Origin: Chromobacterium violaceum ATCC 12472 | GTDB taxonomy: Bacteria; Pseudomonadota; Gammaproteobacteria; Burkholderiales; Chromobacteriaceae | NCBI RefSeq assembly: GCF_000007705.1 | Contig: NC_005085.1 | Span: forward strand, 248,001 to 312,000 | Length of the DNA: 64,000 nt | Direction: 5' to 3' | Shown: in pieces, positions 15,423 to 19,127 of the stretch | Layout of the letters: every line of letters begins with the position of its first letter | How positions within the stretch are numbered: the first letter of the stretch is position 1 | The notes under the pieces: generated by a model | Seen by the model: the letters and a program-made list of their open reading frames with translations, nothing else | The model's database searches: none | Told to the model about the DNA's origin: nothing | Program-made: the position numbers and the translations under genes

Positions 15423-16079
15423 ATGCGTGTGGCTTTGAGCCCGGCCCTGCTGGACAGGCTGCCGGAAATGGAAGTGAGCGGGCTGCTGGCCCTGGACCTG
15501 GATGCCGCCGCCTTGCCGGCCGCCGTGCCGTCGTTGCCGGCGCAGGAAGCGGACCTGGACGCGCTGCTGCGGCGCTGGAAGACAATCTACCGGGCGCTGC
15601 CCGGCGACAAGAAGGCGCGCTGCTCGCTGGAATACCTGGTGAAGGCGGCGCAAAACGGCAAGCTGCGCAGCATCCTGCCGCTGGTGGATCTGTACAACCA
15701 GGCGTCGCTGATCAGCCTGGCGCCGTTCGGCGGCGAGGACGTCGACAAGCTGGGCGGCGAGCTGACGCTGGATCTGGCGCGCGGCGACGAGCGCTTCCTG
15801 CCGCTGGGCCGCGCCGAGGCCGAGCGGCCGCAGCCGGGCGAGGCGGTGTGGCTGAACGGCGAGCGCGAGGTGGTGTGCCGCAGCCTGAACTGGCTGGAAT
15901 CGGAGCGTTTCAAGCTGACGGCGGGCTGCCGCAACGCGGTGTTCGTCAGCGAGCGGCCGGACGCGGGTTTCCCGTCCGGCGAGGCGGGCATGGACTGGCT
16001 GCAGGAGAAGCTGGCGCCGCATGCCGGCCGCTTGCTGCGTTTTCGGCTTGACGCCGGGCGGCCGGATTTCGCCGGCTGA
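15423..16079 (+). CDS. B3/B4 tRNA-synthetase-like domain protein
   Basis: 218 aa resembling the free-standing B3/4 domain found in phenylalanyl-tRNA synthetase beta chains: ARCSLEYLVKAAQNGKLRSI and SILPLVDLYNQASLISLAPFGGEDVDKL are typical. Stand-alone members are proposed to edit or bind aminoacyl-tRNA, but the role is not settled. AAGGAG lies just before the ATG. It is divergent from the C58 gene and convergent with the chemoreceptor. Confidence 0.75.
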   Translation: MRVALSPALLDRLPEMEVSGLLALDLDAAALPAAVPSLPAQEADLDALLRRWKTIYRALPGDKKARCSLEYLVKAAQNGKLRSILPLVDLYNQASLISLAPFGGEDVDKLGGELTLDLARGDERFLPLGRAEAERPQPGEAVWLNGEREVVCRSLNWLESERFKLTAGCRNAVFVSERPDAGFPSGEAGMDWLQEKLAPHAGRLLRFRLDAGRPDFAG

Positions 16080-16083
16080 GGCC

Positions 16084-17706
16084 TCACAGGCGGAATTTGC
16101 CCGCCATCTCCTGCATGCGCGTGGACAGGCCGTTCAGGCTCTGCACCGCGCCGTGCAGCTCGCCGGCGGCCTGGGAATTGTCGGCCACCATTTGCGCCAC
16201 CGTTTCGAAACGCTGGGCGATGCTGTTGCAGACGCTCTTCTGTTCCGAAATGGCGTCGCGGATCTGGCCGACGCCGCCGCTGGCTTCCTGCACGCTGTCG
16301 TTGGCTGCCTGCAGATTGGCCATCACCGTTTCCATGGTGTCGCGGCTCTGCCGGGTGGCGTCCAGTCCGCTTTGCACCGTCGAGCCGACCGACTGCGCGT
16401 TCTGGCTCAACTGCTCGGTCACCTCCTTGATCTCGCTGGCCGCCTTGGCCGAATTCTCCGCCAGCTTGCGCACTTCGTCGGCCACCACGGCGAAGCCGCG
16501 GCCCATCTCGCCGGCGCGCGCCGCCTCGATCGCCGCGTTCAGCGCCAGCAGATTGGTCTGTTCGGCGATGTCGCGGATCTGGGCGGTCAACAGGCCGATG
16601 GCCTGGGTGCTGTCGCGGAAGGCCTGCGACGCCTGGTCCACCTGGCCCATCACCGTGTCTATGGTTTCCGCCTGGCGGCGCAGCCGCGCCACCTCGTCCA
16701 GGCCGTCGCGGGTTTTCTGCGCGCTATGGCGCGAATCGTCGCTGATGCGGGCGGTCTGGTCGGCGATGGTGTCCACGCTGGTGGCCATCTCCTCAAGCGA
16801 GGCGGCGTTGCCGGCGATCGCGTCGTTCTGGGTCTCCGCGCCTTGCGCCAGCGCCTGGGCGGAGCGGCCCAGCTCCTGGCTGGTGCCGCCCACTTGGCGG
16901 GCGGCGTTGAGCAGTTCCCCTATCAGCGCGCCCAGGTGGGTACGCACCGTTTCGCTGCAGGCGGCGATGCGGCCGATCTCGTCCATCCGACCGGGTTGGA
17001 ACGGCCGGGTGAAGTCGCCGTCGGCCAGCCGGGTCAGGTTGGCGACCACCTCGCGGGCGCGGCGGATGATGGTGGCGTTGACGTAGTAGAGGAAGAAGCC
17101 CAGACCCAGCACGGTGCCGGCGGCCATGGCGACGCCCACCCGCCATAGCGCGGAGTCGGCGCTGCTTTCGGCTGCGGCGGCGTTGGCCTTGGCGCGCTTG
17201 GCCAGCAGTTCGCTGGCCTGGGTCAGCAGCTCGGTCGGCGGCCGGTCCATGCCGGCCACCTGCTTGTCGCCCACCTTGAAGTCGGCGCCGGCCTGCTTGT
17301 AGGCGTCCAGCCCTTTGCGGTAGTCGTCGCCCATTTTCTGGTGGGCGGCGACGAATTGCTGCAGCAGTTGCCGCGCCTGGGGATCGGTCGCCGACGCGGC
17401 CAGCGCGTTGCCCTCGTCGCGGACCTGTTGTTCCTTCTTCTCGAAATTGCCCCAGTACTTGGCCAGCTTGGCCGGATCCTGCCCGCGCAACAGGGTGTCC
17501 TTCCACTCCTGCACCTGCTTCTTGAAATCCACTTGCATGATCAGCACCTGCTGCACGCTTTGCTGGTCGGCGGCCACCTGGTCGCGGAAGGCGCGGATGC
17601 TGCCCCACAGCTGGTACAGCGAGAACAGCGACGCGCACAGCAGGATGGCGATCACCAGGCCGACGATGGCGGCCAGCTGTCCGGCCAGCGAAGTTTGACG
17701 ATCCAT
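16084..17706 (-). CDS. methyl-accepting chemotaxis protein
   Basis: 540 aa. TM1 at about residues 9-30, a helical periplasmic domain at 31-185 of the four-helix-bundle kind, TM2 at about 190-210, HAMP to about 265, then a cytoplasmic coiled-coil signalling domain. The hairpin tip includes [20 protein letters not shown], then [17 protein letters not shown], where Met replaces the usual Gln. There is no C-terminal CheR-binding pentapeptide. GGAGG precedes the ATG. The ligand is unknown. The DnaA-box array lies directly upstream. Confidence 0.93.
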
Positions 17707-17835
17707 GCGACCCTCCAGGCAAGAACGATTCTGTTCTAGTTGTAGGGTAGATCAGGATGTCTTACGAATATTTACGTATTCATTTCAAGCACTTTCCGCC
17801 CATCAAGCGGCGCTGACGGGGCGCCATCCCCGGGC

Positions 17836-17961
17836 TATGGACAAGTCGGCGCGCCGCCGTTGCTTGTGGATAAGCATATCCTGTCGCACGGCGGCGGATT
17901 GGCGCGCCCTGGCGGGCGCGTATTGTGGATAAGTCTGCGGCTCGAACATGCCTGTGGATAA
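17836..17961 (-). promoter_or_regulatory. DnaA-box array
   Basis: Three perfect consensus boxes TTATCCACA, all on the - strand (17865-17873, 17924-17932, 17953-17961), plus a two-mismatch box TTGTCCATA (17836-17844). Start-to-start distances are 29, 59 and 29 bp, so all lie on one face of the helix in the same orientation. The array fills most of the 302-bp gap between a chemoreceptor gene and a transport ATPase gene, and an AT-richer stretch lies at 17755-17795. No dnaA, dnaN, parAB or gid genes are near, so this is more likely a DnaA-titrating, reactivating or regulated site than oriC itself. Confidence 0.65.
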
Positions 17962-18008
17962 AGCACGCTGAATGTTTCGAACGGCGGGTGACGCGCCCGC
18001 CTTCCGCC

Positions 18009-19127
18009 TCACGCGATCAGCTCGGCCTCCGGCAGCGCCGCCGGGTCCGCCCGCCGCGCGATGGCCAGCCCGCCGCCGTCGAACAAGTGGCAGTGGCGCG
18101 GGTCCGGCGCCAGGAAGCGGCGCTCGCCGGGACGCGGCTCGGGCTCGTGGCCGGGCAGCTTCAGCGCGATGGTCTCGCCCTCGCCTTCGTGGCGCAGATA
18201 GACGATCTGCTGGTCGCCCAGATGCTCGACCAGCTGCACCGTCGTCGGCAGGCCGGACTCGGCGAAGTACAGGTGCTCGGCGCGCACCCCCAGCGTCAGC
18301 GGGCCATCGCCGGCGCCGGCCAGCGGCAGCGTCAGCCGGCAGTGTCCGGGCAGCTCCAGCTCCACGCCGTTGGCGTGCTGGTCCAGCGCCTGCGCCGGGA
18401 TGAAGTTCATCTTCGGCGAACCGAGGAAGCCGGCGACGAAGCGGTTGGCCGGGCGGTTGTACAGATCCAGCGGCGTGCCCACCTGCTCGATGCGGCCGGC
18501 GTTGAACACCGCGATGCGGTGGCCCATGGTCATCGCCTCCACCTGGTCGTGGGTGACGTAGATCATGGTGCTGCCCAGCTCCTGGTGCAGCCGCGCCAGC
18601 TCGATCCGCATCTGCACCCTGAGCGCGGCGTCCAGGTTGGACAGGGGCTCGTCGAACAAGAACACGCCGGGCTTCCTGACGATGGCGCGGCCGATGGCGA
18701 CGCGCTGGCGCTGGCCGCCGGACAGGGCCTTGGGCTTGCGCTCCAGCAGGTGTTCGATCTGCAGCGTCTGCGCCGCGCGCCGCACCGCGGCGTCGATCTC
18801 CGCCTTGCTCTTGCCGGCCAGCTTCAGGCTGAAGGCCATGTTGTCGCGCACCGTCATGTGCGGGTACAGCGCGTAGCTCTGGAACACCATCGCCAGGCCG
18901 CGCTTGGCCGGCTCGATGTCGTTGGCCAGCCTGTCGTCTATCCACAATTCGCCGGCGCTGATGTCCTCCAGCCCGGCGATCATCCGCATCATCGTCGATT
19001 TGCCGCAGCCGGACGGGCCGACGAAGACCATGAATTCGCCGTCGCGGATGTCCAGGCTGACGTCGTGGATCACGGCGTTGCCGTCGTCGTACACCTTGCG
19101 GATGTTCTTCAGCGAGAGTCTGGACAT
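18009..19127 (-). CDS. sugar ABC transporter ATPase (MalK/UgpC/MsiK type)
   Basis: 372 aa. Walker [10 protein letters not shown] (37-45), the Q-loop in [14 protein letters not shown], signature LSGGQ (135-139), Walker B FLFDEP and the switch His in YVTHDQ. The C-terminal 130 residues form the TOBE/OB regulatory domain of CUT1 ATPases. It is the last gene of the porin-to-ATPase operon, one base after the GH3 stop. Such ATPases can energise several sugar permeases. Here it should serve the permeases at 20643-22382. Confidence 0.93.

Follow-up and report, generated by a model that had tools for sequence, protein, structure and literature searches.

Whether titration of DnaA or switching of its nucleotide state serves as the bacterial replication timer has been argued for decades. 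In E. coli, datA stimulates hydrolysis of the ATP bound to DnaA and DARS promotes the release of ADP from it, and the consensus for IHF is WATCARNNNNTTR. The available portion of PMC10380432 states that datA requires an IHF site at a set distance among its essential boxes and that DARS requires its boxes I and II to stand head-to-head. For the E. coli chromosome, the accessible text of PMC12371093 describes DnaA boxes as enriched near oriC with a preference for the lagging strand and proposes titration, and that of PMC11317965 reports that binding at a double DnaA box favours two boxes with 2-3 bp between them and that only 13 of 32 consensus single boxes fall in ChIP-bound regions. In B. subtilis, the joint removal of six DnaA-box clusters led to strong early initiation according to the available part of PMC5295017, which also states that clusters with significant roles are unidentified in B. 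subtilis, unlike in E. coli. The oriC of Laribacter has eight boxes, with no pair rule in the accessible part of PMC3135505, and we found no earlier report of DnaA-box pairs spaced by 29 or 30 bp in the open-licence literature.

The locus described here lies in the window, the whole 64-kb stretch of DNA that was analysed. A scan of the window finds three perfect TTATCCACA boxes, at 17865-17873, 17924-17932 and 17953-17961 on the minus strand, and none elsewhere; a fourth box at 17836-17844 (TTGTCCATA, two mismatches to TTATCCACA) has the same orientation, and the start-to-start steps across the four are 29, 59 and 29 bp. All lie in a 302-bp intergenic gap (17707-18008, G+C 0.59, no strand assigned) between the start codon of a gene for a methyl-accepting chemotaxis protein (MCP; 17706) and the end of an ABC-ATPase gene (18009). 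The preliminary description had reported this arrangement, which the scan bears out, and had judged a chance origin unlikely, which also held: 100 dinucleotide shuffles of the window gave a mean of 0.09 perfect boxes and a maximum of 1, and the real signal lies in the 29-bp steps. The UgpC/MalK-like ABC transporter ATPase (18009-19127, minus strand; Pfam ABC_tran, TOBE_2 and OB_MalK) served as the syntenic anchor, the MCP gene (16084-17706, minus strand; Pfam MCPsignal) lies downstream of the array, and a conserved 218-aa ORF (g15423; 15423-16079, plus strand) is convergent to the array block and becomes the pair's next neighbour where the chemoreceptor is absent. The loose motif HHMTHCWVH, by which PMC12371093 defines datA/DARS boxes, has a single opposite-strand match in the gap, ATATCCTGT at window positions 17876-17884 on the plus strand, which adjoins a perfect box at a distance of two bases and is, by eye, absent from the orthologues.

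The array is two side-by-side copies of one head-to-tail two-box module and not a four-box unit. Pair 1 (17924-17961, minus strand) consists of the perfect boxes at 17953-17961 and 17924-17932, head-to-tail, 29 bp start to start with a 20-bp spacer, and is separated by 47 bp from the point where the ABC-ATPase gene ends. Pair 2 (17836-17873, minus strand) joins the perfect box at 17865-17873 to the degenerate one at 17836-17844 (TTGTCCATA), again 29 bp start to start, and sits 130 bp upstream of the MCP start. A count of all same-strand spacings of up to 150 bp over the 450 kb surrounding the origin, with one mismatch per pair allowed in total and the oriC cluster described below set aside, gave 29 bp (six), 30 bp (one), 59 bp (one) and 88 bp (one), with no opposite-strand pair in the same count; the spacings of 59 and 88 bp both come from this locus, which is why we read the array as two adjacent pairs. 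Where no gene intervenes, the starts of the two pairs of orthologous loci are 88-233 bp apart, so that the 59-bp step is unconstrained and a four-box array with a meaningful 59-bp step is ruled out.

The same module recurs elsewhere in the genome, a single contig of 4,751,080 bases with 37 perfect boxes. All nine same-strand matches to TTATCCACA-N(0-30)-TTNTNCACA are spaced 29 or 30 bp start to start. A spacing of exactly 29 bp with up to three mismatches gives 12 pairs, none of them with three mismatches, against 0 for the reversed-pattern control, and two 30-bp pairs bring the genome to at least 14. The 29/30-bp rule is not absolute: with up to one mismatch per box, same-strand spacings of 14 and 34 bp occur inside the oriC cluster, one of 12 bp at 3870371, and others of 21 and 39 bp near 4635570, and the genome has one opposite-strand pair (3645337/3645364). 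Six box-like 9-mers of mixed orientation (one perfect, five with one mismatch) also crowd into about 170 bp at C1:4635429-4635599, some 350 kb from oriC, in a cluster that lacks the 29-bp step.

Across the genus, the ATPase gene was matched in 19 of 19 genomes, and at least one pair is kept in the block ugpC-pair-(MCP)-g15423 in 18 of the 19 species. Conservation of the array and its spacing in relatives, which the preliminary description had proposed as a check, holds for the pair, kept in these 18 at 29/30 bp, and fails for the 59-bp step, which varies. Two pairs are kept in 13 of 19 (G000, G001, G002, G004-G008, G010, G012, G013, G015 and G017), where the second pair includes a two-mismatch box in this genome and in G008. 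The pair stands directly behind the ATPase gene in 15 of 19 genomes; in G003, G009 and G018 other sequence with no pair follows that gene directly, and a one-mismatch pair remains roughly 85-220 bp upstream of the MCP gene. In G002, G012 and G015 the two pairs are about 1.5-1.8 kb apart and look as if they had been split by an insertion. G014 has no pair at the locus and no 29-bp pair in its genome. The boxes stay while the spacers vary freely from one species to another and some loci have inserted genes or lack genes, a persistence that would be expected if the pair itself were under selection.

With one mismatch allowed, 29-bp pairs occur in 18 of 19 genus genomes (144 pairs, control 0), and among perfect same-strand pairs at 9-39 bp in the 19 genomes, 114 of 115 are spaced 29 or 30 bp (control 0), the single exception among the perfect pairs listed being one of 12 bp in G018. 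Of the 61 genomes of the family, 47 carry some perfect pair spaced 9-39 bp and 14 carry none; among the matches listed, the two g4 genomes have a 14-bp pair only, and 16 of 20 pairs of genus g5 are spaced 30 bp and two 29 bp. The preference of g5 (G035, G036) for 30 bp goes with a spacer core of roughly AAGYCNCNAA, unlike that of the Chromobacterium genus, and the g5 pairs with this core are possibly the site of another protein. Of 300 genomes of the order, 48 have some perfect pair at 9-39 bp (seven of the nine family genomes sampled and 41 others), and spacings outside the family are mixed and include 29 or 30 bp in five genomes, with a single such pair in each. In the class, a 29/30-bp pair was found in 2 of 369 genomes (this one and one other) and in 1 of 369 with the reversed-pattern control, so that its frequency at this level is that of chance. 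Within the genomes sampled, the fixed-spacing module is numerous only in this family.

The origin probably lies away from dnaA, the gene at the contig start. In 20-kb stretches, the skew is below zero from 0 to 240 kb, except at 140-160 kb (+0.001), and above zero between 240 and 410 kb; summed over a joined 450 kb (4,711,081 to 410,000), it reaches its minimum at 238,322. Most of the stretches sampled elsewhere agree with a single arm each, and that at 2.30-2.32 Mb has near-zero skew. Ten box-like 9-mers (up to one mismatch) in both orientations lie at C1:236334-237056, 1.3-2 kb from the skew minimum, eight of them in the gap that separates a waaC-like heptosyltransferase gene from a family 2 glycosyltransferase gene. 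In all four other genus genomes tested, the box cluster of highest density within an 80-kb stretch again lies next to waaC, and the local skew minimum falls within about 2 kb of it. These patterns suggest that oriC is probably the box cluster beside waaC rather than the stretch around dnaA. This probable oriC lies just outside the window, about 29 kb from the array at 265.9 kb. The earlier remark that the gap has no origin genes around it is true within the window and misleading beyond it, with the probable oriC about 29 kb away. The suggestion that the array might be a second origin-like element is rejected, as the skew minimum and the dense box cluster are found 28-29 kb away and the gap itself has a G+C of 0.59. 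Near the contig start, an integrase/transposase-type ORF was seen by eye close behind gyrB (L009:5504-5998).

Six genomes with complete or nearly complete chromosomes were mapped, and none of their 61 listed pairs is farther from oriC than 0.353 of an arm, the median being 0.061; for G008, waaC was the only marker used to place the origin. Several strong DnaA boxes are found outside yet near the inferred oriC, as in sites of the B. subtilis DnaA-box cluster (DBC) type. Genomes of genus g2 have at most one pair each, 10-22 kb from the waaC/oriC marker in eight of the eight compared and reading towards it in seven. Six of the eight pairs (29/30 bp) on the waaC contig of G036 read towards the marker, and three others are on other contigs; G035 has one pair on its waaC contig, about 94 kb off and reading towards the marker, and G053 one that reads away from it at a distance of about 245 kb. 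In other genera, most pairs fall on contigs that lack the waaC marker and are hence unplaced, among them the listed pairs of G031, G032, G047, G048, G050 and G051. This genome has a 30-bp pair at C1:246327-246365, about 10 kb from oriC, and pairs about 9-14 kb from oriC occur also in G007, G008, G013 and G015. Two further pairs, at C1:206649 and C1:208977, lie 28-30 kb on the other side of oriC and roughly mirror the present locus; each of the five other genomes mapped has pairs about 25-35 kb from oriC on both sides.

We favour, with moderate confidence, the reading that the array is an origin-proximal DnaA sink or regulator working like datA or the B. subtilis clusters, a predicted module that would oppose re-initiation. 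A DnaA-titrating or regulating locus was one of three ideas put forward at the outset and is the best supported of them because the pairs are numerous, origin-centred and conserved; the DARS half of that idea did not stand, as the 302-bp gap has no head-to-head strict boxes and one loose opposite-strand match only. In the mechanism that we propose, two DnaA molecules would hold the outer boxes of each pair and one or two more would sit on the spacer, so that a small head-to-tail oligomer of DnaA would form. Since the pairs lie near oriC, they would be doubled early after initiation; the doubled pairs could then soak up DnaA or speed the loss of its ATP form, and re-initiation would be opposed until newly made DnaA had refilled them. 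Plain titration needs no fixed spacing and so leaves the 29/30-bp rule unexplained, which hints at a defined DnaA complex. Hda is encoded in this genome.

This hint leads to the reading that the pairs are active nucleotide-state switches, in which the fixed 29-30 bp geometry would bring DnaA protomers side by side and cause hydrolysis of DnaA-ATP, as happens at datA, though perhaps with no need for IHF. We regard it as unlikely, and it is best weighed against the anatomy of the spacer, for which the 144 genus pairs (orthologues included) were reduced to 89 non-redundant spacers. The spacer of the module is 20-21 bp long and biased in sequence, not fixed: 98% of the 89 begin with G or A directly after box 1, 91% carry A or T two bases ahead of box 2, and positions about 13, 20-22 and 28 are A+T-rich. 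In 50 non-redundant sequences with flanks, a pyrimidine precedes box 1 in 92% and a purine follows box 2 in 88%; an A or T stands two bases ahead of box 2 in 96%, compared with 46% ahead of box 1, a feature strong before the one box and absent before the other, which makes the module directional. Little else stands out in these sequences, with no common flank sequence beyond the box-adjacent bases. The strict spacing together with a structured spacer suggests a defined complex and not mere affinity, and weak box-like matches inside the spacer are most marked at offset 10 (z 4.2) and offset 19 (z 5.4) when compared with shuffled spacers, a pattern no more than suggestive of hidden weak DnaA boxes. 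However, the box-like match within the spacer averages only 2.8-2.9 of 9 letters and further offsets rise above the null as well (z up to 3.4 on the same strand and 3.9 on the other), so that a filled row of four protomers would be a guess; genus g5 moreover has a different spacer core, and no such weak-box pattern is apparent in its 16 spacers. The IHF-like consensus WATCARNNNNTTR with 0-1 mismatch has no match in this genome's own copy (290 of the 302 bp scanned) and a single match in each of 7 orthologous sequences out of 19, where shuffles would give about 3; of the seven, three are one common motif before the MCP gene and two fall at one place overlapping the spacer.

That the pairs are promoter elements through which DnaA would control transcription of a neighbouring gene, here the chemoreceptor, we consider improbable. 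In favour of such a role, pair 2 lies 130 bp upstream of the MCP start, and the MCP gene follows the pair in 12 of the 18 pair-keeping species, including the three (G003, G009, G018) with other sequence on the ugpC side. The remaining six (G001, G004, G005, G006, G011 and G013) have no MCP gene between the ATPase gene and the convergent ORF and yet keep one or two pairs; this weakens control of the chemoreceptor as the main function and means that the DnaA-controlled promoter of the preliminary description cannot be the sole reason for conservation. Elsewhere in this genome, by a simple and crude codon-composition rule for gene calls that at a different threshold calls some overlapping ORFs, 12 of 14 pairs lie outside called genes and two inside, and six of the 14 stand between convergent genes, the last a placement that also argues against promoters. 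Nor do the identified neighbours have a common function: among 16 neighbour ORFs scanned, a set that left out the neighbours of the pair at 138185, only two, a guanine deaminase and a GGDEF-domain protein, reach the NCBIfam cut-offs, the looser matches include a methyltransferase, an MFS transporter, a HisP-like ATPase and an ABC permease, and no shared function or DnaA-regulon theme was seen.

A role as directional chromosome-organisation sites, polar marks near the origin read by DnaA or another protein, for example in origin segregation or fork-related regulation of DnaA, is likewise improbable. The evidence that raises it is orientation, for 51 of the 61 listed pairs in the six genomes read towards oriC, compared with 4 of the 11 unpaired perfect boxes of this genome, and a lagging-strand preference of E. 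coli boxes is reported in the accessible text of PMC12371093. A G-rich leading strand alone would, however, be expected to give a share of about 63% towards oriC (an estimate, not a fitted null); the excess over it (p 3.7e-4) treats orthologous pairs as independent and is uncorrected for relatedness, and this genome by itself has 10 of 14. A mobile or repeat-derived sequence that carried DnaA boxes and landed near oriC is rejected as very improbable, since, although spacers are alike at a few loci of this genome (such as 138185 and 885668), the 144 genus pairs collapse only to 89 dissimilar spacers and the 50 non-redundant flanks have no common sequence beyond the box-adjacent bases.

Returning to the favoured sink or regulator, a more far-reaching proposal, which we offer tentatively and hold to be rather doubtful, is that Chromobacterium and its near kin evolved a distributed DnaA control: a dozen or so mostly origin-facing 29/30-bp pairs of equal geometry, each nucleating a short DnaA oligomer of defined make-up that would change the nucleotide state of DnaA or hold it in an inactive assembly, would stand in place of one datA locus. 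The locus has wider meaning in three respects. About 14 countable pairs of the same geometry, kept near oriC amid change, make the titration model testable by discrete units; the 29/30-bp rule also points to a predicted DnaA assembly absent from the available portions of the E. coli sources; and the probable oriC of this genome is placed away from dnaA, where the contig starts.

Set beside the known systems, the array resembles E. coli DARS1 and DARS2 in being a box set outside oriC that could act on the nucleotide state of DnaA, and differs from them in that all its boxes (up to two mismatches) are head-to-tail on one strand. With the E. coli double box, as described in the available part of PMC11317965, it shares two boxes at a set spacing; the 20-21 bp between boxes here compare with a preferred 2-3 bp there, so that the 20-bp gap departs from the cooperative geometry that is known. 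Boxes gather near oriC here as they do in the chromosomal titration of E. coli (PMC12371093, accessible text), whereas loose single motifs are counted in that work and the word 'spacing' is absent from its main text. Like the B. subtilis DBCs, which are origin-proximal by a title cited in PMC5295017, the pairs are DnaA-box sites outside oriC; unlike them, as far as the available part of PMC5295017 describes them, they are built of a 29-30 bp head-to-tail unit, and they belong to another phylum. E. coli datA is likewise non-coding, with strong DnaA boxes near oriC, and exerts the negative control of initiation that we propose here, but datA is one locus and this genome has at least 14 pairs. 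DnaA sites near oriC are thus known in kind; what is new in form is a spacing-locked, directional and lineage-specific family of them.
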